Below are positions 1 through 11,589 of a stretch of DNA of 21,398 nucleotides, piece by piece. How positions within the stretch are numbered: position 1 is the stretch's first letter; each line of letters opens with the position of its first letter. Where the stretch lies: IMG/VR virus record IMGVR_UViG_3300009433_000071, positions 1 to 21,398 of that record; one strand, given 5' to 3'. The notes under the pieces were generated by a model that saw only the letters and a list, made by a program, of their open reading frames with translations, ran no database searches and was not told the origin of the DNA. Made by a program: the position numbers and the translations under genes. Source of the stretch: a virus.

Positions 1-372
1 GTCTACTTCTTCTTGTAACTCTTGAATATTCATTACCGCAGCATCTAATGCTGTTTCTAATGTTTCAGCAGATAGCGGTGAATTTTCTACAAGATCCGTT
101 GCTTGCGTATTAGAACTTTCACGTCTAAGTAAAACAGTTTCACCAGAAGCTGGTATATTGCCTGACGTAAACGTAATTGTGCCACCTGAAGAATTACCAA
201 CACCGGCCACCGTATAGTGTGTTGTTTTTGTTTTAACGGTTTCTGTACCCGCCGCACTTCTAATAATAACAACGATATCGTCATCATCAGAAATTTTAAA
301 CGTATACGCAAACGCTGTAGTAGAAGCATTTCCACTATAACTATTTTTAACCGTAGTAGTTGATATTGTCAT
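1..372 (-). CDS. Tail fiber protein, N-terminal part (runs off the left edge)
   Basis: This open frame begins with ATG at 372, overlaps the stop of the preceding gene in an ATGA junction, and continues without a stop through base 1, giving 124 codons of an incomplete protein. It begins MTISTTTVKNSYSGN, has FAYTFKISDDDDIVV and later GGTITFTSGNIPASGETV and LVENSPLSAETLETALD, and ends in a helical IQELQEEVD. This pattern matches the N-terminal virion-attachment domain of T7 gp17-type tail fibers, which fixes the fiber to the tail tube while the missing C-terminal part would contact the host surface. Its place directly after the gp16-like gene matches the T7 order of internal virion proteins followed by fiber. 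The family call is from remembered sequence pattern; the receptor-binding part is outside the window. Confidence 0.88.
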   Translation of the reverse strand, partial: MTISTTTVKNSYSGNASTTAFAYTFKISDDDDIVVIIRSAAGTETVKTKTTHYTVAGVGNSSGGTITFTSGNIPASGETVLLRRESSNTQATDLVENSPLSAETLETALDAAVMNIQELQEEVD

Positions 373-3311
373 TGTTCTTTAGCTTTCAGTAATTGACTTT
401 CCATAAATAAATCTTGTAATGTTCCCGCATACGGGCTTGATGTCATCATCCAATTTTTTGCAACTTCTCTTGCAAAATATATTTGTTGTTCAATTCTATT
501 TATTTTTTGTCCTCTAGATAATTCATTGTATCCAGAATCTTGTATTAAATTTAAAACATTTTGGTATGCTAATTTACCAACATACTTTCTGTACATGGTA
601 TATTCGCTATCAATTTTTTCTCCGTTAATAACTTTTGGTTTTTTAGAAAATGGAATACCACCAGCAAAATTATCTGAATGATCACCCATGTTCATTTTTA
701 GTTTAACCATTTCTTCAGCAACAGGATTGTCTTTTACTTTGGTACGCATAATTGGACTAACAATGTTAGGCCCAAGCGCATCATCATAAACTATTTCTTC
801 ACCCCAAAAACTTATTGATGGTTCTAATGTTTCAGACATTAACGGTACTTGTGATTTAATAGATGCTATTTTATTTTGTAAATAAACTAACACATTACCT
901 CCACTTCCACCCATGTCTGTTTGTCTTTTTGTTGGATCACCTTCATAAATAAAAGGTATTCCTCCTCTATTAATTTGAGCCACAATTCGTGGAACAAAAC
1001 TTTTTAAAAATTTATTAACATTAGCTTCATCATGTCTTGTTGGATCTGATAATAATTCTATAAAGTTTGACATGCCTTCCATGTATGTTTTATTTGTTAG
1101 GTTCGCACCTAACGCATACGCAAATCCTGTTACTATTTCTTCATAGTCTTGTTGTTTAATATAATTACCTGACACTAAATCACTTACATCAGCCGACATA
1201 CTAATCAACATTGCAAAGGGATCAAAACCAGAATAACTGTAATACGTATCACCAAGCTTAAAACTATTTTTTTGATACCCTGTTTCTTTTAATTGTAATT
1301 GTATTCCTCTGTGTGGTGAACCATTGCCAGTAAGATAACCCATTTGTGCTAACGTCATCATTGCACCCATAAATGTTGTACCCATTGCCATACGGCCGTA
1401 CGCCATTTCTGCTCTTACACCACCAGCAGCAATATCATCTTGCACCTTGCCTAACATAAAACCAACAGGCGTTCTTTCAATTGCATACTTAGCAATATTA
1501 ATTGGTGTTTTAGTAAACGGTAAAAAATACCGAACAACTGGTTTGTTTGCTATTGTTTGTATTGCTTTACCTGTACCGCCTAGTTCACTTTGAAACGTAA
1601 TATATTTTGCTAATGCATCAGCATCTTTCACTACATTTGCTGGTGGATTAACAATAAAATCAGCCATATAATCAGCTGCTTCATCCGGTAAAAGTTTACC
1701 ATTATCTAACATTTCTGTAGCACTACGCCATGCCTGTGCATACACTTCCATTTGATATGCTTGTGCTTTAAAAAAAGCATCTTGTGTTTGCAGCATTTTT
1801 GTAGGTACACGGCCTAAAGTAAAAATATTACCAAATACATTTGCCGATTTAGCCAGCCATGCATTTTCAATACCTTCACCTGAAAAAGCTTTTGGTCTAT
1901 AATTTTGTTCTAACTTAGAACCTGATACTAATTCATCACCAGTTTTAAAAGCTTGTGCAGATAGCTTAACATTACTTAACCAATTCATGCGAATAGCAAA
2001 AGCCATTGCTTCGTTTTCGCCTTTAGCTAAACCTTGATCTGCATTTTTATTTTTATTTAAAAATTTGTTTAATGGTTTACCAGCGTAATAACCCCACCCT
2101 CTTTCAAAACCTTGTGAATAGGTAGTAACAGCATTACCAACAATATTTCGTACATGTGATACTGGACTAGATAAAAGAATATTAATCCACGCTTCATACA
2201 AAGCATCAAAACCTCTTGTCCATCCAGAAGATAAAGAAGCAAATTTTGCTTTTTGATCTGCACGAGGTAGTTTTAAATACGCATCAGCCATTCCTGATAT
2301 TTCATCAGCGCCGCCCATTGTTTTTAAAACATCAGAAGTTAAAAAACTTTCTATATCAACATTACCACCAGCTTTAGCTTTAATATTAAAACTTTGTAAA
2401 GCTCTAGCAATTTCAGTTTGTGCGCCTTTGACTTGGGCCTGTAATTGTTTTGTAAAAGCCATATGCTGGGCAAAAGCTAATTTATCAGCATCTGTGCCAT
2501 TAACAGCCACTTTTGCTAATTCGTCTAACTTTGTCATTGATGTAACAAGCAAATCTCTAGCAGCCAACATTGTTTCCGAATTAAATAATTCACCTTGTTG
2601 TCTACCAAGAATTTTATTAGCTAATTTTTTTTCTGACATACCAAGTATATCAGCTAATTGTCTTGTAGCTTCGTTAGACATTTCCGCACGTTTAGCCGCA
2701 TCCATCGTTGTTTTATAAACTTGGCTTTGTGCTTCAATTAATTTTAAAACATCTTCTTCGGTACTAAATTTACCGCTATTAAAATCAGATAATCCATTAT
2801 CTAAAATATCTGATTTATTGTATTTAGTTAATACATCATTAGCATCAGCTAATGTTGGTTGTGATAAGTCTATTGTTTTAGATTCTTTAACTGTCCATAT
2901 GCTATCAGCATTTTCTGTTATTTCATCAGTTTGTTCTACAGGTACATCAATGTCATCTTCTTTAACTGTAAAGTTTGATGATTGATTTTTTTGTTTTTTT
3001 ATTTCGCTATTAAGTCTATTTATTTCTAACTTATCAGCATCTGTTAATTCAGGCTTACTTCGTATTTCATCTATTTGATCCGTTAAAGCTTGAACATTAT
3101 TTTTTATTGCTTCTTTTTCAGCTACCTTAACAGCAAGATCACTTTCTTTACCACCTTTTAATATGCCTTTTAGAACTGTACTAGCAGACGCTACTTCTAC
3201 TTCTTCCGGTAAATTATTTGGTTTATTTGCTGTATTTATAATGTCCTGTACACCAGAAGCTTGATCACTTTGTAGTAAACTAGCTGCTTGGTCGGGATTG
3301 GAATATGCCAT
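369..3311 (-). CDS. Large internal virion (DNA-ejection) protein, gp16/DarB-like position
   Basis: This is a 980-aa protein counted from MAYSNPDQ. A longer reading starting at 3353 is possible, but its extra 14 codons would be the stem of a terminator, so ATG at 3311 is the better start. Residues 1-310 are polar and helix-rich. Residues 381-393 read SSPVSHVRNIVGN and residues 594-617 contain RYFLPFTKTPINIAKYAIER; both resemble motifs I remember from very large phage and plasmid polyvalent proteins and ejected virion proteins. Residues 642-662 form a glycine- and methionine-rich hydrophobic stretch that could enter a membrane. There is no recognisable lytic transglycosylase motif, unlike T7 gp16. 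Its position between the ejection-protein cluster and the tail fiber supports a role as the last internal core protein, ejected to help move DNA across the cell envelope. The function is inferred from place and motifs, not from a clear catalytic domain. Confidence 0.75.
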   Translation of the reverse strand: MAYSNPDQAASLLQSDQASGVQDIINTANKPNNLPEEVEVASASTVLKGILKGGKESDLAVKVAEKEAIKNNVQALTDQIDEIRSKPELTDADKLEINRLNSEIKKQKNQSSNFTVKEDDIDVPVEQTDEITENADSIWTVKESKTIDLSQPTLADANDVLTKYNKSDILDNGLSDFNSGKFSTEEDVLKLIEAQSQVYKTTMDAAKRAEMSNEATRQLADILGMSEKKLANKILGRQQGELFNSETMLAARDLLVTSMTKLDELAKVAVNGTDADKLAFAQHMAFTKQLQAQVKGAQTEIARALQSFNIKAKAGGNVDIESFLTSDVLKTMGGADEISGMADAYLKLPRADQKAKFASLSSGWTRGFDALYEAWINILLSSPVSHVRNIVGNAVTTYSQGFERGWGYYAGKPLNKFLNKNKNADQGLAKGENEAMAFAIRMNWLSNVKLSAQAFKTGDELVSGSKLEQNYRPKAFSGEGIENAWLAKSANVFGNIFTLGRVPTKMLQTQDAFFKAQAYQMEVYAQAWRSATEMLDNGKLLPDEAADYMADFIVNPPANVVKDADALAKYITFQSELGGTGKAIQTIANKPVVRYFLPFTKTPINIAKYAIERTPVGFMLGKVQDDIAAGGVRAEMAYGRMAMGTTFMGAMMTLAQMGYLTGNGSPHRGIQLQLKETGYQKNSFKLGDTYYSYSGFDPFAMLISMSADVSDLVSGNYIKQQDYEEIVTGFAYALGANLTNKTYMEGMSNFIELLSDPTRHDEANVNKFLKSFVPRIVAQINRGGIPFIYEGDPTKRQTDMGGSGGNVLVYLQNKIASIKSQVPLMSETLEPSISFWGEEIVYDDALGPNIVSPIMRTKVKDNPVAEEMVKLKMNMGDHSDNFAGGIPFSKKPKVINGEKIDSEYTMYRKYVGKLAYQNVLNLIQDSGYNELSRGQKINRIEQQIYFAREVAKNWMMTSSPYAGTLQDLFMESQLLKAKEQ

Positions 3312-3325
3312 ATTGTTTTTTCCAT

Positions 3326-3351
3326 AAAAAAAGCCCGCACACTTGGCGGGC
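3326..3351 (-). terminator. Rho-independent terminator before the 980-aa virion gene
   Basis: Read on the minus strand, GCCCGC (3351-3346), a 7-nt loop and GCGGGC (3338-3333) form a perfect 6-bp GC stem followed directly by seven T (3332-3326). It lies 52 nt after the stop of the 889-aa gene and only 14 nt before the ATG of the 980-aa gene, leaving no room for a promoter between hairpin and start. It therefore probably reduces, rather than ends, transcription into the downstream virion and fiber genes, or the downstream genes start from a promoter in 3352-3403. That stretch is very AT-rich with TATAAC- and TATAAA-like hexamers but no convincing -35 box. Confidence 0.85.
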
Positions 3352-3403
3352 ATTTTATATTGTTATAGTTAAATTTTTGTATTTTGTGTAGTCTTTTTTA
3401 TAA

Positions 3404-6073
3404 TTATTTTGGGGTTCTTACGGTTGAATATTCACTATGAGTATCTTCCATATTATCAATTAATGCGTTTAATTTCTTTTTATTATCAGAAGCGGCAAAT
3501 CCTTTAAAGTTTCCACTATCCCAAAACTGAACAACAAACTTAAAGTTTTCTTTTAATACTTTGTTCATTTCAGCAAGAGTAAGCATATTGCCCATCATTC
3601 CCTCTACTTCATCAAGACCTCCTGATAAAATAATCTGTTTTCTTTTTTCTATTAAATCATCTTTTCCAAAATAAAAACTTTTGTAATTATCTTTATTAGC
3701 TTCATTAATATTAAAATCATTAGTTATAAATTTTTCTTCCGTAACAAAAACACCGTCTTTTTTTAATAATCGTTTAACTTCTTTAATTTGGGCATTTCTT
3801 GTATTGGAAATAAACTGAAAGACCATGCCTTCATGAATAACATCAAATTTTTTCTTTGGTTTATAATTAGGCCCAAAAGCATTTAGATCAAAGGTTGCCC
3901 CGTCAACTTGACTAATACTATCAAAATTATTTTTCATATCTTGGTTCATATCCAAACTAACAGTTTTTACTTTACCATTAGATTGTTCAGTAATAGCTTT
4001 ACCCCATGAACCTTCAGAAGCACCGATATCTAATACGTCAGCATTTTGATATGTTTTAGCAATTGCTGCACCAACAACATTTTGTACATCATCATATGCT
4101 GGAATACTTTTTGCTATATGATCATCAAAATTACCACGATGTGCAGAACGTGAATCAACGTAACCTTGTATATTATCTAATTGTAAAACTGGTTTGTATG
4201 GTATTTCTGATGCGCCAGCATCACCTTTAGTTACAGAAGAAAAGAAAGTTTGAGTTTCATTTCCTGTTCCGGCGAAAGTTTGGTCAACTTTGATTGTGTC
4301 TGTTCCTTCACCTCTGATTGTATCCCCCCATTGTTCTTGTTGGGGTTTAGTTCGGACATTAGCTGTTCCGCTAGATTCAACGCTTTGGTTGGGGTTAATT
4401 TGTCTGACGAAGCTTTCAATTTCTTCCCTTCTTCTTGTAATGGCTTTTCCATAACTGTCTATATCATTAATATCTGTTCCTTGTCGAACAAAATTTAATG
4501 CCCATACAGCCGCTTGTGTTTCAGAATCTGTCCATCCTAATTTTTTAGCAGCTTGATTAATAGTTGTTCTTATTTGTCGTATTTGTCCTTTAGTTGGTGA
4601 TGACGTATTAAAAAATATTTGAGCCATATGGCTATCAACAACAACAGTATCTAGACCACGCATTGCTTCCATAAAATTAGGAATTTTATTACCGCCAAGA
4701 AAAGCTGTTTCACCTAATCCTATACCACTTGGTAAACTACCATCTGTTTGACGTAATGTGCCTTTAGCGGGTTTTGCATTTGGATCATTAACGTATCTTT
4801 TTAAATTTTCTTTTATGCCATCAAGCATAGGAAGATCATCTATTGGTGTACCGTTTTTAATAGCTTTATACGCAGCCATTGCATTATCAATATTTTGACC
4901 ACCAACTTCTGCACGTTGTGAAGTAATAGATAATAAATCTTCAAACAGTTGTGCATCTTGTCCAAATATTTCATCAACAATTGGTTTGTGTACTTTATAC
5001 CATTCCCTCATGTTAGGAAATTTATTAGCCGCCATTACTGTATCATCAACATCAAGACGTGGTTCTTTCAATACACCTTCTGTTTTACTGTTATCAAAAA
5101 AAGATAATAATTCTTTAAATGATTTTGCTTTTGCTTCTGCATCATCTGCAACACCTACAGTTGCACCAGCAGCAGTAGTAGCAGCAAATTTTTTATATTT
5201 TACCGCTGCTTTTATTGCTGGAAACAATACTTCAAAACTTGCACCAATACCGGCTATTTCAGCCATGTTTAATAATTTGTTACGATATATTTCTCTAGTT
5301 TCATAATCACCACCATGTTCTTTTGGCGGGGGAATAGCTATCATTTCTGCTATAGTTTTTATTTTACCATCATCTAAAAACTCAGCAGCAATATTACCTA
5401 AGTTTGGATCTTTAGGATTTATTCCAAAACTAGCACCGACAGCTTCCGCCATAATCATTGCTATTGGTTTTGCTATCTTGCCAAACTTTTCTTTAAAGTA
5501 AGGCGCTTTCATTATTGTCATATAAGTCGGAACGGCTGGGCCAACAATCCCTGATAATTCTCTTGATATATTAAATGCTGTTGGACTAGCTTCGCTATTT
5601 TCAAACATTTGTTTATTACCTTCATCAAGCATTGCACGAAAAGCATCTAGGTTTTCTCTTTTAGGCCCAATGCGATAATCAAATAATTGTTCTGTTAAAT
5701 CACCAGCCATTACGCCGCCTTCATATAAAGATAGCATCATGCCTTGATCTTTTGCCCCACCAAAACCAAAAACACTATCAAAGGTATCTAGAACCGTTTT
5801 ACCGTAATCTAAAAATCCTTTGGTGTTTTCTTCTTCGGTAGGTGGTTGTTGTTGTTTTATTTCTTCTAATAATTTTTCAGAATTTTTTAATGCTTGAATA
5901 CTTTGATATTCGTCTAATTCTTTTTTAGCGGGATTATTAACTTCAGCATCTTTTGTAGCTGTAATACTATACAATTGATCATACCAATTTTCATTTTCCA
6001 TACTAACAACATTTTCATTAGTATCAGCTGTTTGATTATTTTGATCAAAAATTGTATTATTATTTAATTCCAT
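3404..6073 (-). CDS. Polyvalent-type virion protein with C-terminal SAM methyltransferase domain
   Basis: This 889-aa protein starts 3 nt after the upstream stop, with AGGTAA as ribosome site. Residues 1-90 are polar. Residues 90-330 alternate amphipathic helices with Gly/Ala-rich stretches (AGATVGVAD near 302). Residues 350-530 form a distinct region with LLSITSQRAEVGGQN, GNKIPNFMEAMRG, VVVDSHMAQIFF and QAAVWALNFV, resembling a domain I remember as DUF7178 in phage proteins. Residues 670-865 are a class I methyltransferase: motif I VLDIGASEGSWG (680-691), acidic end of strand 2 in VSLDMN (D708), motif IV region FDVIHEGMVFQF (743-754) and LLKKDGVFVTEEKF (769-782). The DPPY/NPPY motif of DNA amino-methyltransferases and the PC motif of 5mC enzymes are absent, so the substrate is unknown. 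Flanking ejection genes suggest it is packaged and injected; antirestriction as in P1 DarB is a hypothesis. Confidence 0.8.
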   Translation of the reverse strand: MELNNNTIFDQNNQTADTNENVVSMENENWYDQLYSITATKDAEVNNPAKKELDEYQSIQALKNSEKLLEEIKQQQPPTEEENTKGFLDYGKTVLDTFDSVFGFGGAKDQGMMLSLYEGGVMAGDLTEQLFDYRIGPKRENLDAFRAMLDEGNKQMFENSEASPTAFNISRELSGIVGPAVPTYMTIMKAPYFKEKFGKIAKPIAMIMAEAVGASFGINPKDPNLGNIAAEFLDDGKIKTIAEMIAIPPPKEHGGDYETREIYRNKLLNMAEIAGIGASFEVLFPAIKAAVKYKKFAATTAAGATVGVADDAEAKAKSFKELLSFFDNSKTEGVLKEPRLDVDDTVMAANKFPNMREWYKVHKPIVDEIFGQDAQLFEDLLSITSQRAEVGGQNIDNAMAAYKAIKNGTPIDDLPMLDGIKENLKRYVNDPNAKPAKGTLRQTDGSLPSGIGLGETAFLGGNKIPNFMEAMRGLDTVVVDSHMAQIFFNTSSPTKGQIRQIRTTINQAAKKLGWTDSETQAAVWALNFVRQGTDINDIDSYGKAITRRREEIESFVRQINPNQSVESSGTANVRTKPQQEQWGDTIRGEGTDTIKVDQTFAGTGNETQTFFSSVTKGDAGASEIPYKPVLQLDNIQGYVDSRSAHRGNFDDHIAKSIPAYDDVQNVVGAAIAKTYQNADVLDIGASEGSWGKAITEQSNGKVKTVSLDMNQDMKNNFDSISQVDGATFDLNAFGPNYKPKKKFDVIHEGMVFQFISNTRNAQIKEVKRLLKKDGVFVTEEKFITNDFNINEANKDNYKSFYFGKDDLIEKRKQIILSGGLDEVEGMMGNMLTLAEMNKVLKENFKFVVQFWDSGNFKGFAASDNKKKLNALIDNMEDTHSEYSTVRTPK

Positions 6074-6076
6074 AAT

Positions 6077-7873
6077 TTACCTATTCTGTATATCTTCTAA
6101 TTTTTCACTATCTGATTTTTCATCATCGTTACCATCAAACCAATTAAACATAGAGTTAGTTTTATTTTTAGAATCATTAGCATCATCACCAGTTGGCACT
6201 TGACTATCTTTATTCATTTCATCAACTAATTGTATAGCTTGCAACATAGCTTCCATTGCATTTAATTTTTCTAATTCTGCAATTGCCATTTCATTAGTAT
6301 AATCTTTTCCTAAATAAGATGATCCTAATGAAGCTGCTACTTTTGTTGCTTCTTTAGCATCTTTAATATCTTGCATGGTATAATCTTTTGCGACTTTACC
6401 TTTTACACCCCACACCGGTGTTGTAAATATACCCATGTTAACAGCAAAATCACCTGAACCAATTGTTAGTGTACGTGTTAATATGTCTACGGTCATTGCT
6501 TCAAAATCAGTAAACCCTTGCATATACAAACGATCAAATTCTTCTAATGCTGCACCGGCTCTAGCATTCCACGTTGGATCAAACTTAGCTAAAATATTTC
6601 CTGATTTATCAACAATTTTTTGTAATCGTTTACGTGAATTATCATAACGTACAAAATCTTTACTCTTACTTTTTTTCGTATTAATTAAACTTAATTTTTG
6701 TGCAATAGTTTCTGCTGTTAATTTTTGAAAAATAAAAGCATCATTTTGTAATTCATCGGCAATAGCATCTAATTCATCATCTGATGTTGCATTTAATATT
6801 CGATCAGTAATATCAACTAATGTTGCCGGATTATTTTCATCAATATCTTTATCCGTAACTTTTGCCAAAATTTTATCATATTGGCTTTCTGTTAATCCTC
6901 GTCTATCAATACCCATTGATGTTTCTAAATCTTGTATTGTCGGTAATCTATTAAATGTTTCTTCACTTGGATTATTTTCATATTCCGCAATACGTGTCAT
7001 TAAATTTGTGTAATTAACTAATTGCTGTTTTTTTAAATCTTTTTCTATTTGCTTTTCTTTTTTAGATTCTGATCTATTGTATTCTGCAATATCACCTTCA
7101 ATTTTTCTATCCGCTTTTTCAATTAAAGATAAACGTATTTCTTCTTTTAAGTTTGGATAAGATACATCATCATACAATTGTGATTTAGCTTTAATTGGAT
7201 CAGCTAAAATATCTTGTGTGGCATTAATTTTATCAATACGTTGTTTTGCTGCTAATTCTAATTTAGCTGCTTTATCTGCATCATAAATACCAAGACCAAC
7301 ACCGGCTTCAAAAATACCCGCAATTTTATCATTACCAAATAATGCTATTTTAGCAGTTTCTATTTCAAAAGAATTTTTACCTTTAGTAATTTGATTAATT
7401 AAATTTTCTGTTTGATCAATGTCTTTCGCTTTATAATCTTCTATCATGCGAACACGGTTTTCATTTTTAATGCTAATTGATTTTGATTGTACAGATTTAT
7501 TAAACGAATTAATAAAACGTCTTTTTACAACAGGATCAGAAATACTATTAAGTATGCTTGTTTTTAGTAAATCTGCTTGGGAAACAAATTTTTGTAATCC
7601 ATCATCATAAGAATATTCGTTTTCTGCTTTTGTTTGTAAATCTAATAAACCACTTTCTGATTTACTTTCTGCACCAACTAAAGCATTGTTTCTTTTTATT
7701 TCAGTTTCTGCTGCATAAAATTTTGCCGATACATTTTGAACACTACCCGCTAAATTAGCCATAGCTGCATATGGCGCAGCAGCTGTATTAGGATTAATTT
7801 TTAAATTAGATTTAATATTTCCTAATTCACTTGTTACATCACCTTTTGATTTATATACTGGTATCTTTGCCAT
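6077..7873 (-). CDS. Internal virion protein, gp15-like position, coiled-coil rich
   Basis: This 598-aa protein has ATG overlapping the upstream TAA in a TAATG junction, so it is translationally coupled to the gp14-like gene. It begins MAKIPVYKSKGDVTSELGN, has an Ala-rich segment at about 31-45, and is then almost entirely charged and helical, with long heptad-like Lys/Glu-rich stretches (for example around residues 240-285 and 385-410). The C-terminus is acidic (NWFDGNDDEKSDSEKLEDIQNR region). I see no enzyme motif. Long helical proteins at this place, between gp14-like and gp16-like proteins, match T7 gp15, which forms the periplasmic part of the DNA-ejection channel. T7 gp15 is longer (about 750 aa). 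The assignment rests on gene order, length and helical character, since sequence in this family diverges quickly. Confidence 0.65.
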   Translation of the reverse strand: MAKIPVYKSKGDVTSELGNIKSNLKINPNTAAAPYAAMANLAGSVQNVSAKFYAAETEIKRNNALVGAESKSESGLLDLQTKAENEYSYDDGLQKFVSQADLLKTSILNSISDPVVKRRFINSFNKSVQSKSISIKNENRVRMIEDYKAKDIDQTENLINQITKGKNSFEIETAKIALFGNDKIAGIFEAGVGLGIYDADKAAKLELAAKQRIDKINATQDILADPIKAKSQLYDDVSYPNLKEEIRLSLIEKADRKIEGDIAEYNRSESKKEKQIEKDLKKQQLVNYTNLMTRIAEYENNPSEETFNRLPTIQDLETSMGIDRRGLTESQYDKILAKVTDKDIDENNPATLVDITDRILNATSDDELDAIADELQNDAFIFQKLTAETIAQKLSLINTKKSKSKDFVRYDNSRKRLQKIVDKSGNILAKFDPTWNARAGAALEEFDRLYMQGFTDFEAMTVDILTRTLTIGSGDFAVNMGIFTTPVWGVKGKVAKDYTMQDIKDAKEATKVAASLGSSYLGKDYTNEMAIAELEKLNAMEAMLQAIQLVDEMNKDSQVPTGDDANDSKNKTNSMFNWFDGNDDEKSDSEKLEDIQNR

Positions 7874-8373
7874 TATGCTGTTATTCCTTGTTGTGTACTA
7901 TAATAAGAACTACCACCACTTAGTAAACTTTGGCCCGCTTGTGCATAGTAACCAGAAGCAACAGACTTACCTTCCATTCGTGCTAAGTCAGCTTGCATAG
8001 AATATAAAATACTTTCTTCTTCTTTTTGTTCTTTAGCAATCTGTGAATTGTATGTCATAAATTCTTTTTCTAATTCTGCTTCACCAGCATTTTCCATTAA
8101 TACTAATAATGGTGTTTCGCCAACACGGTCTGTTTGTACACCAGATACATTATACGCTACTCTTGTTTGCGCTTGTAAATCTTCAAAGCGATCATCAAAA
8201 CGTGCTAAGTTAAATTTTAATTTATTATCTTCGTTTTCTGCTTCTTTTAATGCAATATCTGAATTACGATCTTGTATTGTGCCATTAAATTTACCAGCAG
8301 CTTCAGCGGTCTTACCCGCTTTAATTGAACTAGCTACAGCAACAGCTGTACTTGCTATTAGTATTGCTTCCAT
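7873..8373 (-). CDS. Internal virion protein, gp14-like position
   Basis: This 166-aa protein starts in a TAATG overlap with the gp13-like gene upstream and ends in the same kind of overlap with the gene downstream. The N-terminus MEAILIASTAVAVASSIKAG is hydrophobic and small-residue rich, suited to membrane insertion. The middle is a charged helix (DIALKEAENEDNKLKFNLARF), then VAYNVSGVQTDRVGETPLLVLMENAGEAELE, a helical stretch, and a Gly/Ser/Tyr-rich end. In T7, gp14 (196 aa) is the smallest core protein and forms the outer-membrane part of the ejection channel. Similar small proteins with the 'SGV...GSPLLVLMENA' pattern occur in many podoviruses at this locus. The call is by pattern and gene order. 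Confidence 0.7.
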   Translation of the reverse strand: MEAILIASTAVAVASSIKAGKTAEAAGKFNGTIQDRNSDIALKEAENEDNKLKFNLARFDDRFEDLQAQTRVAYNVSGVQTDRVGETPLLVLMENAGEAELEKEFMTYNSQIAKEQKEEESILYSMQADLARMEGKSVASGYYAQAGQSLLSGGSSYYSTQQGITA

Positions 8374-8816
8374 TAAAATATCCTTGCAAATCGGTAGTAG
8401 TCTTTTTTGTCTACACCATATTGTTTCATTAACCCTTCATTTTCTAAACCAAGCCATTTAGCAAATTGATGACCAACAGAAAAATCTTTTAGTACCGCAG
8501 TTTGTAATCTATTCATTTTATTTTCATAAATTAATTTATCTAAACCCCATTTAATAACACGGGCTGAAGATAATTTATGTTTATTCATTAAGTTGCTACC
8601 TAGCACCCATCCTTCGTAAACACCTTCCCACACAGGAACAATACCACCACTACAAACAATACCTTCATCTGTAACAGCGGTAAAACTTTTATTTTTTTCT
8701 TCTAAACTGTTTAATAAGTGTTGATGTTTTTCAGCAAGTTTTAAAATATTATTATTCATAATACCTGTAACTAACACTTGCGCATGAATTGATTCAAAAG
8801 GAATAAGTTTAAGCAT
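8373..8816 (-). CDS. GNAT-fold protein resembling T7 gp13
   Basis: This 147-aa protein begins MLKLIPFESIHAQVL. A TTG three bases upstream could extend it by one residue, but the ATG at 8816 lies in an 8-nt overlap with the end of the tail tubular B gene, a usual coupling arrangement. The pattern of a conserved N-terminal strand, SFTAVTDEGIVCSGGIVPVWEGVYEGWVLGS in the middle, then LSSARVIKWGLDKL and FAKWLGLENEG, is that of the GNAT acyltransferase fold as seen in the T7 gp13 family (about 138 aa). T7 gp13 is needed for correct virion assembly but is not a major virion component; whether it acetylates anything is unknown. Its place between tail tubular B and the gp14-like gene is the same as in T7. 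Confidence 0.8.
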   Translation of the reverse strand: MLKLIPFESIHAQVLVTGIMNNNILKLAEKHQHLLNSLEEKNKSFTAVTDEGIVCSGGIVPVWEGVYEGWVLGSNLMNKHKLSSARVIKWGLDKLIYENKMNRLQTAVLKDFSVGHQFAKWLGLENEGLMKQYGVDKKDYYRFARIF

Positions 8817-11589
8817 CAAATGTATTTAACCTAGCAAAAACAGAAACAATAGTTAATGGTAATGGATCAGCTTGTCGTAAAAAAATAAATCCATCTTTAT
8901 CGTAATCACTTCTAAATTCTGCATCTTTATCACCCGTAAATAACGGGATAGATACAGTTAATGGAAACGAACTAGAACGAAACGGAATATTTTCCATGTC
9001 TGTTAAACTTCCACCGACTTCAACACCTACCGTATCTAATAAACGTAATGTTACATCATGAATACGTTTTGTTTTACCTTGCGCTACACCATCTTCAGCA
9101 CCCGCTTCAATACGCATAGTTTGTAAAATAGATGTATACGGTAAACCTATATGAACACTTTTTGATGAACGATCTAATGTTATAGAACCACTCGATACAG
9201 TTTTATTAGGATGTGTACCTCCATCAGCTAATATTGCTACTGTTTCACCTTCTAAATGATCTAAACCAGATATACTTGTTGTTGCTCCACCAGAATATGT
9301 AAGGCCGGAATCAACATAGAAAGCATCAGATACATCATCACCAAAATCATAATTATTAAAAAATTCTATAAAGCGTCTAGTAACACCATTTATATATCGT
9401 TGAACAACAATAAAAGTTTGATACTCATTACTTTCTGTAGGTATTGTTGCAATACTTTCTACTTTAGCATCTACTAAAATTTTATCTGTTTGTGCAGTTG
9501 TATGAGCAGACGATAAATTAACATAACTAGAAAAATCATCTGTTGTTGATAATTTAAACTGATCGTTATCAATTTTTAAAATATAGTATTTTTGTTTGTT
9601 TGTTAAACCACCAATAGATGTACCTGTATTATTATAATAAATGTAATCACCTGTAGAAAAACCATGTGATGCAGAATACAAAATATTATTATAAATATTT
9701 ACACCTTTATAAATATATTGCGTTGTATTAGTTGACGGTGCAGAATATAAATCAATAGCTGTGCCAGCTGTAGCATTTGCCGCTGTTGTTGCTAATTTAA
9801 TTGTATTACTGTTTGTCGCAATAACATAATATAATTTTTCATTACTCAAACCACCAATAACATTAGATCCGGCATAATAATAAACAGCATCACCAGTAGA
9901 ATAACCGTGTGATGATATAGTTATTGTATCACTACCAACAGATACATTTGATGCATTAGACGTAAAACTTTTTGCATGTTGAATAATTGTTTTACCACTA
10001 TCAGCGTAACCACCAATAATATGTCTATGCCATCCAATAACATTTTCTGTACGTTGATATGTTAAACCACATAACTGGCCATCGTTACGAACACACCATA
10101 AGATACCGTGCGGTTCTTGTTGATAGGACATTTCTTTAATACCACTATCTGTTATGTGTTCAGCTAATATAGTTAAATCAGGAGCAACATAAGAATCTGA
10201 ATCATAGTTATATGTTAATTCTCTAACTTTTCTTTTGGCCCTTTGTAAAAACAAAGTTACGTTTCCGACTTGTGCCGGTTGTATTTTTGATGTGCCGTAA
10301 TTAGCTTGTTTTTTTATTTGTATATTTGTTGGTGTTAACGGTTCAGAAGATCCTGAAGCTGTTACAATAAATTCACCACCAGTTGTTCCTAAAATTAATG
10401 AACGCTGTGATGACATATACCGAATAGCGTTAACTTGATTTGATGCTATCGTATATATCATTGCGCTATCAGCATTTGTGCCTAATGTAAAATTTTCATA
10501 ATCACCAGATTTAGAAAAAAATATTGTTTGCGGATTATTATTTGTGCCAGCAAAAACTAATCGTTCTTCAAAAAATGCTACTGTAGATGGATAATTATTT
10601 GCAGATACATTAAATAATGGAGTAGTTAATTTATTAACTGTATCACTACCACCAGCACTAAACGTACCATATGAAGATGAATTAACATTGTTATCGTCTG
10701 TATCTAATAAATTAAATGATGTTGAAGATCCTACTGTACCAACTTTGTAAATATTTCCATTTAATTGTGTCATTCCACCAATGTTAGAAAAAGTTACAAA
10801 TTGACCTTCTGTATATCCATGATTAGTTGACGTAGTTATAACTGCTGGATTTGCTTTTGTTACACCACTAACAGCAACATCTGCTGACGTTGTTATTGTT
10901 GGCGATGCTAATGTCCATGACGTATGCCCTGTACGTGTTAATTTACGTATAGAATATGATGGATGAGCCAAGTACATTGTGTCCGCACTTTGTGCAAAAG
11001 TAACATCAAAAATATTTGCCGTTTCATACGGTGTTGCTATTTCATAAATTCTTGCAGCCGTACCAGCAGAACTATAAGCTGTAAAAGAAGAACTATTAAT
11101 ATTGTTGCCGTCTATATCTGTTAATTCAAAAGTATTTGTTGATTTATTTTTTACTAAATATCTTTTATTATTTAATTCTGTCATTCCAACAACAGAAGCA
11201 ATATACACTTCATCCCCGTTAGAATATCCATGACTATTAGAAGTAATAACACATGGGTTAGCTTGTGTTGCACCCGTAATAGTTTTATTAGCTTCGGTAA
11301 TATATCCGCCATCTTTATAAAAGCGCATATACTGATTACCTAATTCTAAAATATATGTTTGCGTTGTTGAAAACTCAAACGGAATAATACGTGTACTTGC
11401 TGAACTAGTATTTACTTCAGCAACAAATTTTGTGCCACTACGTCTACTTGCTGAACCATGAGGATGGATAACTAAATTTTCCATCGTTTTTGTGCCATTA
11501 AAATATTTATTAATGTCTGTTCTACCATCAAGACGTGGTGATAATTCACCAGCCGTAAAATTACTAAAAGCAAAAGATACTCTTGCCAT
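8809..11589 (-). CDS. Tail tubular protein B (T7 gp12-like nozzle) with four inserted FCCH-like repeats
   Basis: This 926-aa protein starts with ATG 3 nt after tail tubular A, with AGG in the preceding Arg-Tyr codons as ribosome site. The N-terminus FAFSNFTAGELSPRLDGRTD is the hallmark of this tail nozzle family, followed by MENLVIHPHGSASRRSGTKFV. The core continues with FEERLVFAGTNNNPQTIFFSKSGDYENF (340-367), GTTGGEFIV and ILWCVRNDGQLCGLTYQR (496-513). It is longer than T7 gp12 (about 794 aa), and most of the extra length comes from two pairs of related segments at residues 102-181, 242-320, 548-620 and 628-700, each starting with a HGY/F-S/T-x-G-D/Q motif. They look like the FCCH-type domains annotated in other phage proteins. 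The protein forms the distal tail tube together with tail tubular A. Confidence 0.9.
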   Translation of the reverse strand: MARVSFAFSNFTAGELSPRLDGRTDINKYFNGTKTMENLVIHPHGSASRRSGTKFVAEVNTSSASTRIIPFEFSTTQTYILELGNQYMRFYKDGGYITEANKTITGATQANPCVITSNSHGYSNGDEVYIASVVGMTELNNKRYLVKNKSTNTFELTDIDGNNINSSSFTAYSSAGTAARIYEIATPYETANIFDVTFAQSADTMYLAHPSYSIRKLTRTGHTSWTLASPTITTSADVAVSGVTKANPAVITTSTNHGYTEGQFVTFSNIGGMTQLNGNIYKVGTVGSSTSFNLLDTDDNNVNSSSYGTFSAGGSDTVNKLTTPLFNVSANNYPSTVAFFEERLVFAGTNNNPQTIFFSKSGDYENFTLGTNADSAMIYTIASNQVNAIRYMSSQRSLILGTTGGEFIVTASGSSEPLTPTNIQIKKQANYGTSKIQPAQVGNVTLFLQRAKRKVRELTYNYDSDSYVAPDLTILAEHITDSGIKEMSYQQEPHGILWCVRNDGQLCGLTYQRTENVIGWHRHIIGGYADSGKTIIQHAKSFTSNASNVSVGSDTITISSHGYSTGDAVYYYAGSNVIGGLSNEKLYYVIATNSNTIKLATTAANATAGTAIDLYSAPSTNTTQYIYKGVNIYNNILYSASHGFSTGDYIYYNNTGTSIGGLTNKQKYYILKIDNDQFKLSTTDDFSSYVNLSSAHTTAQTDKILVDAKVESIATIPTESNEYQTFIVVQRYINGVTRRFIEFFNNYDFGDDVSDAFYVDSGLTYSGGATTSISGLDHLEGETVAILADGGTHPNKTVSSGSITLDRSSKSVHIGLPYTSILQTMRIEAGAEDGVAQGKTKRIHDVTLRLLDTVGVEVGGSLTDMENIPFRSSSFPLTVSIPLFTGDKDAEFRSDYDKDGFIFLRQADPLPLTIVSVFARLNTFDA
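9490..9948 (-). repeat. Second pair of FCCH-like protein repeats in tail tubular B
   Basis: Two adjacent segments (residues about 548-620 and 628-700) share the skeleton SHG(Y/F)STGD..YY, then IGGL(S/T)N...YY(V/I)(I/L), then a strand ending in KL(A/S)TT. They are closer to each other than to the first pair, which suggests a local duplication. This is a protein-level repeat; the DNA of the two copies has diverged. Confidence 0.75.
10630..11286 (-). repeat. First pair of FCCH-like protein repeats in tail tubular B
   Basis: Residues about 102-181 and 242-320 share HGY(S/T)(N/E)G, GMT(E/Q)LN, F(E/N)L.D.D.NN(I/V)NSSS and a small-residue run before the next core strand. They are separated by about 60 residues of nozzle core (IYEIATPY to TRTGHTSW), so they sit as insertions at two sites and not as a simple tandem array. 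Confidence 0.75.

Follow-up and report, generated by a model that had tools for sequence, protein, structure and literature searches.

A CmoA-like SAM-dependent module and a predicted DNA-glycosylase fold in a putative ejected protein of uncultured phages

Genes and gene order at the locus

The DNA analyzed here, called the window, is that of a marine phage and comprises positions 1 to 21,398 of IMG/VR record IMGVR_UViG_3300009433_000071 (21,398 nucleotides in all). Matches to Pfam and PHROGs outline a podovirus-type late block, with internal-virion genes and then tail-tube, capsid, and portal genes, and the gene order is that of Pelagibacter phage HTVC028P. The genes in and around the slot of interest are the following.

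369..3353, minus strand, 994-aa internal virion protein in the gp16-like position (phrog_6651, E 2.7e-40)
3404..6073, minus strand, gene of an 889-aa multidomain protein (open reading frame; 94%-identical full-length relatives in contigs L002 and L003; overall dN/dS 0.20)
6077..7873, minus strand, 598-aa protein without a family match, at the gp15 position (positional counterpart HTVC028P gp35)
7873..8373, minus strand, 166-aa internal virion protein (phrog_418, E 2.9e-9)
8373..8819, minus strand, 148-aa protein (phrog_4177, E 7.7e-25; internal virion phrog_308, E 5.2e-10)

Genes for proteins that match internal-virion PHROGs (148, 166, and 994 aa) flank the 889-aa gene, in keeping with the preliminary description, which had placed it between gp15-like and gp16-like ejection genes; the name gp15-like for the 598-aa protein, however, reflects position and size only, because that protein has no family match. 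In HTVC028P, the 889-aa slot is occupied by gp34. No SAM domain was recognized in gp34 and its relatives, so the C-terminal parts found in this slot differ between phages. The gp34 family (L086 10733-13597 and L182-L196) has a conserved C-terminal part with a VEEMQSDL motif, which no Pfam model matches. A portal-based scan of viral contigs returned 80 loci, most of them ending short of the 889-aa slot. Elsewhere in the window (8809-11589), a tail-tube-B-like protein of 926 aa, which exceeds its HTVC028P counterpart in length, matches the E1_FCCH-type repeat model twice (PF16190, E 7.7e-24).

The 889-aa protein would comprise three parts: a lineage-specific N terminus, a DUF7178 module, and a C-terminal CmoA-like SAM module.

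5054..6073, minus strand, N-terminal part, aa 1-340 (nearest relatives only; weak collinear likeness to HTVC028P gp34)
4370..5017, minus strand, DUF7178-like module, aa ~353-568, predicted HhH-GPD DNA-glycosylase/lyase fold (Pfam, iterated profile, AlphaFold2, fold matches)
3407..4258, minus strand, CmoA-like class I SAM-dependent module, aa ~606-889 (homology extent, AlphaFold2 model, PDB matches)

Scans of viral contigs with the full 889-aa and 994-aa queries gave two near-identical relatives and nothing else, and for this reason the N terminus is not placed. Its likeness to HTVC028P gp34 is weak (BLASTP E 0.004 in a single comparison; hhalign P 0.007). Comparison with a 94%-identical relative gives dN/dS values of 0.23 for aa 1-340, 0.22 for aa 345-570, and 0.20 overall; the lowest value, 0.11, is that of the SAM module, indicating that this module is constrained and not decayed.

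The C-terminal SAM-dependent module

Residues ~606-889 make up an entire class I SAM-dependent domain. The preliminary description had assigned a methyltransferase domain to aa 670-865 of the 889-aa protein (window positions 3479-4066); a domain does lie there, but its real extent is wider, from near aa 606 to the C terminus. The signature motifs that it had listed are present, namely, VLDIGASEGSWG from aa 680, D708 as the acidic residue following beta-2, FDVIHEGMVFQF from aa 743, and LLKKDGVF from aa 769.

4001..4036, minus strand, motif I VLDIGASEGSWG, aa 680-691 (D682, G684, and S686 correspond to EcCmoA D62, G64, and S66; E687 is clade invariant)
3812..3847, minus strand, motif IV region FDVIHEGMVFQF, aa 743-754 (E748 is invariant and clade specific; Q753 and F754 correspond to EcCmoA Q136 and F137)
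3641..3643, minus strand, R811, aligned with EcCmoA Arg199 (Arg in 5 of 32 clade members, window protein included)

The full domain is borne out by general methyltransferase models, with Methyltransf_31 of Pfam over its gathering score (E 7.8e-7), by phrog_4752, annotated "tRNA methyltransferase" (aa 648-813, E 5.8e-19), by 119 homologous stretches, by the low dN/dS, and by an AlphaFold2 model (pLDDT 87.9, pTM 0.87). Conserved residues, among them D682, G684, S686, and D708 at SAM-binding positions, and the model together suggest that the module binds SAM.

Closest family and fold were sought in the PDB. With a profile built from 32 clade members, CmoA sequences being left out, the only PDB sequences below E 1e-5 were CmoA/YecO (1im8, 4e-9; 4iwn, 2e-6; 4gek, 3e-6). 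Structural comparison of the model in VIA gave Z scores of 20.5, 20.4, and 20.3 for 1im8, 4gek, and 4iwn, over 213-219 aligned residues; MM_2633 (3dtn) and CysG/BelI are tied with CmoA (Z 19.1-19.9), and other methyltransferases follow at 17.3, 16.6, and lower. The Foldseek ranking differs, with CysG and MM_2633 first and CmoA from rank 13. The tied matches are small-molecule SAM enzymes to which the module is 15-19% identical; CysG and BelI are malate-type carboxyl O-methyltransferases with a His-His-Asp metal site (PMC11408123). Naming the closest subfamily, a check that had been proposed, gives CmoA/YecO, tied in fold with MM_2633 and CysG/BelI. The SAM-dependent domain stands, but strictly speaking it may not be a methyltransferase, given that it is closest to CmoA and the related small-molecule methyltransferases. 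As had been remarked, the sequence has neither the DPPY nor the PC motif, and a DNA-methyltransferase reading was dropped, there being no such motif and the fold matches being CmoA type.

Relation to CmoA

CmoA is a carboxy-SAM synthase and a tRNA-pathway enzyme. Its SAM contacts include Y39, D62, G64, S66, D89, N90, D117, I118, N132, and F137; D117 contacts the adenine and Asn132 the methionine, while the carboxy-SAM carboxylate is bound by Arg199 (PMC3663124). The phage clade keeps, fully or nearly so, the equivalents of D62, G64, S66, D89, F137, E164, K165, K185, and K198. At the D117 position, 29 of 32 clade members have Ala (A732 in the window protein), and cofactor binding could therefore differ from that of CmoA. 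None of the 32 has Asn at the Asn132 position (G749 in the window protein), a position that discriminates poorly because most phage CmoA proteins compared also lack it. The N90 position holds Pro in 31 clade members and Met in the window protein. R811 and K810 of the window protein align with Arg199 and K198, Arg occurring at position 199 in only 5 of the 32 and never at 203 in the clade. Residues invariant and specific to the clade are E687, E748, K794, W851, G854, and G858, and more than 20 columns, clustered at motif I, motif IV, and the C-terminal strand, are invariant or nearly so over divergent phages.

The module shares with CmoA/YecO the fold, the SxP and DxGxS motifs, LQF/FQF, R143, EK, K185, K198, and an NF near the C terminus. 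Unlike CmoA/YecO, with which it is only 16-20% identical, it has lost D117 and N132, does not conserve Arg199 across its clade, has an N-terminal FF..G segment, a C-terminal extension, and invariant E687, E748, K794, and W851, and is embedded in multidomain phage proteins. It falls far below the family cutoff: the TIGR00740 equivalog model scores 34.1 bits for the full protein and 37.1 bits for the domain, against a cutoff of 193.3. In a tree, the module clade is set apart from nine CmoA proteins on a long branch with 100/100 support, the exact root being uncertain because the branches are long. Enzymes that would use carboxy-SAM were sought alongside the module, and neither PF00145 (CmoX type; 27 module-bearing records) nor PF08003 (CmoB type; 23 records) gave a match, which is weak evidence since many of these records are fragments. 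The standard CmoA-CmoX arrangement was dropped on the PF00145 result. Residue changes, the TIGR00740 shortfall, the separate clade, and the absence of carboxy-SAM users lead us to read the module as a nonstandard CmoA: judged from alignments and the model, the domain is probably CmoA derived and SAM binding but not a carboxy-SAM synthase.

Phage CmoA proteins that make Cx-SAM are known from a CmoA-CmoX-CmoY DNA-carboxymethylation pathway, for which SAM depletion has been raised as a possibility (PMC12783734). They are phage encoded and belong to the same wider family as the module; they differ from it in being free-standing genes beside a cytosine methyltransferase, whereas the module forms a separate clade for which such neighbors were not found in the 27 records searched. 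Arg at E. coli position 199 (EcCmoA, Y3, and PaBG) or at 203 (F1, SPbeta-like, S-CRM01, Evaa, and MT835562) characterizes the nine CmoA proteins compared, EcCmoA and the phage proteins of L173-L179 and L005, never both together and in SM1 neither. The Arg at 203 may be a shifted carboxylate-binding Arg. Staphylococcus phage vB-SscS-F1 (L005 4953-7471) has a CmoA-like gene near a cytosine methyltransferase, resembling the CmoA-CmoX pairs of PMC12783734.

Distribution of the SAM module

Relatives of the module are widespread in viral contigs, where an alignment scan found at least 119, of which 80 loci were kept. The open reading frames that bear it range from 343 aa (cut by a contig end) to 5,546 aa, 36 of the 80 exceed 1,000 aa, and the position of the module within them varies. 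Neighboring genes in other phages encode tail-tube, portal, terminase, and major head proteins. In a second group of ~480-800-aa proteins, the gene lies between those of terminase and portal in the examples examined. The best viral-structure match, at 43% identity, is an "ART-PolyVal-like domain-containing protein," and two of the best matches are that protein. Across 50,697 phage records, the sole carrier is Maribacter phage Panino, in the 1,829-aa protein WZE63588.1, whose gene adjoins virion genes. Scanning 84,980 bacterial and archaeal genomes for two short peptide motifs, an approach that could miss distant relatives, revealed none. Two individual loci may be mentioned: in L131 (7242-8885), adjoining genes of 547 and 421 aa each match the CmoA-like module, and in L114 (7656-9110), a 340-kb jumbo-phage contig, the module is in a 485-aa protein and not in a giant polypeptide.

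The DUF7178 module

The central module matches Pfam DUF7178 at E 0.013 in the window protein and over the cutoff in the homologous modules of L106 and L100. Two of its residues are invariant in 14 sequences.

4685..4687, minus strand, K463, Lys of the GGNK motif, invariant, proposed as the catalytic Lys of a glycosylase/AP lyase
4634..4636, minus strand, D480, Asp of the VVVDSH motif, invariant, proposed as the catalytic Asp

The AlphaFold2 model is all helical (pLDDT 74), and the 50 matches listed by VIA are all HhH-GPD proteins, the highest scores, Z 10-10.9, belonging to archaeal 8-oxoguanine glycosylases (3fhg, 10.9 over 163 residues), although scores of this size could arise by chance for mostly helical models and Foldseek E values for this model are only 0.7 and above. 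The Asp region aligns with AIIDRH of MjOgg, a sequence match of E 1.3 in which the Lys residues were paired by eye; so aligned, K463 and D480 occupy the places of the catalytic Lys and Asp in these glycosylases. The predicted fold is like that of HhH-GPD glycosylases (OGG2 such as MjOgg and SsOgg, EndoIII, and OGG1), as is the presence of an invariant Lys followed 17 residues later by an invariant Asp, but the module is only 8-13% identical to these enzymes and its model has a pLDDT of 74. An HhH-GPD DNA-glycosylase fold for aa ~345-570 is a good prediction, not a proof.

An iterated profile located a DUF7178-like module in at least 16 proteins that have the CmoA-like one, either before or after it, a co-occurrence that shows no specific link because most proteins searched had been picked for the CmoA-like module. 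None was detected in Panino or in the 480-800-aa group, and phage records yielded no relative. A literature search returned no paper on DUF7178, a Pfam family of unknown function.

Discussion

Polyvalent proteins, surveyed in phages and conjugative elements by Iyer et al. in 2017 (PMC5512222), likewise combine several unrelated and reshuffled modules in one polypeptide and are encoded with virion genes, some being annotated ART-PolyVal. The window protein shares its modules with other such proteins and is encoded among virion genes, but at 889 aa it is short for this class. Neither CmoA nor a glycosylase is named among the domains in the main text of that survey, and in the literature searched we found no description of a CmoA-derived clade in polyvalent proteins or of a glycosylase fold for DUF7178; the polyvalent ejected protein is itself a kind already known. 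P1 DarB, cited in the preliminary description as a precedent, is virion associated and has a SAM-dependent domain, and as an analogy of delivery it holds, with packaging of the window protein suggested by gene position. It is not a relative: the DarB methyltransferase is an N6-adenine enzyme fused to an SNF2-type helicase and LPD36 (PMC5512222), and by Pfam and the absence of a DPPY motif the window protein has no N6-adenine methyltransferase motif, SNF2-type helicase, or LPD36.

The reading that we favor, and consider reasonably probable, is that the 889-aa product belongs to the ejected proteins of polyvalent type, in compact form, and that its C-terminal module is a SAM-using effector acting on a small molecule or exposed group and not making Cx-SAM. 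From its gene position and its relatives, we infer that the protein would be packaged in the capsid alongside the internal virion proteins and enter the cell with the DNA, so that two enzymes might arrive simultaneously in one polypeptide. The SAM module would bind SAM and most likely alkylate, by methyl transfer, a small molecule or exposed group near the clade-specific E687 and E748, carboxy-SAM probably no longer being made; the target of the glycosylase-like module may be DNA. The result would be a host metabolism or defense altered ahead of phage gene expression. In CmoA, a lid covers the cofactor (PMC3663124) and, if kept in the module, argues against a bulky nucleic-acid substrate.

Alternatively, the module could still be a carboxy-SAM synthase in the infected cell, where it would either provide a host or phage enzyme with Cx-SAM or deprive SAM-dependent defenses of their SAM. 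The nearest characterized family is CmoA, R811 and K810 align with Arg199 and K198, the E164-K165 equivalents are kept, and phage enzymes of this activity exist (PMC12783734). We nevertheless regard it as unlikely, given that Arg is found at 199 in no more than 5 of the 32 clade sequences and in none of them at 203, where several phage CmoA proteins have it, that N132 and D117 are replaced with TIGR00740 far under its cutoff, and that the 27 and 23 records searched hold no C5-methyltransferase or CmoB-like match. Cooperation of both modules on DNA, in which a base would be removed or probed and the DNA or a nucleobase-derived product then modified, seems to us quite improbable. It would accord with the co-occurrence of the two, whichever comes first, in at least 16 proteins, with fold matches that, among those listed, are all HhH-GPD (3fhg, Z 10.9), and with the invariance of K463 and D480. 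Both modules, however, are mobile in large multidomain proteins that were mostly chosen for the CmoA-like one, no DUF7178 was detected in Panino or the 480-800-aa group, and the DNA-methyltransferase motif is absent from a module whose CmoA counterpart has its cofactor beneath a lid.

That the SAM domain is a structural, catalytically dead remnant serving only virion assembly or ejection appears very improbable. An altered adenine-binding position would fit such a remnant, as would an ejection-gene slot in which the proteins of other phages have different C-terminal parts; a dN/dS of 0.11, the lowest in the protein, more than 20 invariant or near-invariant columns across divergent phages, and retention in unrelated protein architectures all argue otherwise.

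Ejected phage effectors act ahead of phage gene expression, and few such enzymes have been identified. The effector module that we favor is traceable to a precise ancestor, CmoA, forms a separate clade in at least 119 viral contigs, and is linked to a DUF7178 module. Because it is common to giant polyvalent proteins, often beside a domain resembling a DNA-repair glycosylase, it probably serves many uncultured phages as a common tool of early infection. A bolder proposal, on balance doubtful, is that a phage-restricted CmoA-derived enzyme with new chemistry, injected with a DNA-glycosylase domain, constitutes an unrecognized counterdefense or host-takeover machine in many uncultured phages. Maribacter phage Panino is cultured and carries the SAM module, making virion proteomics and enzyme assays possible.
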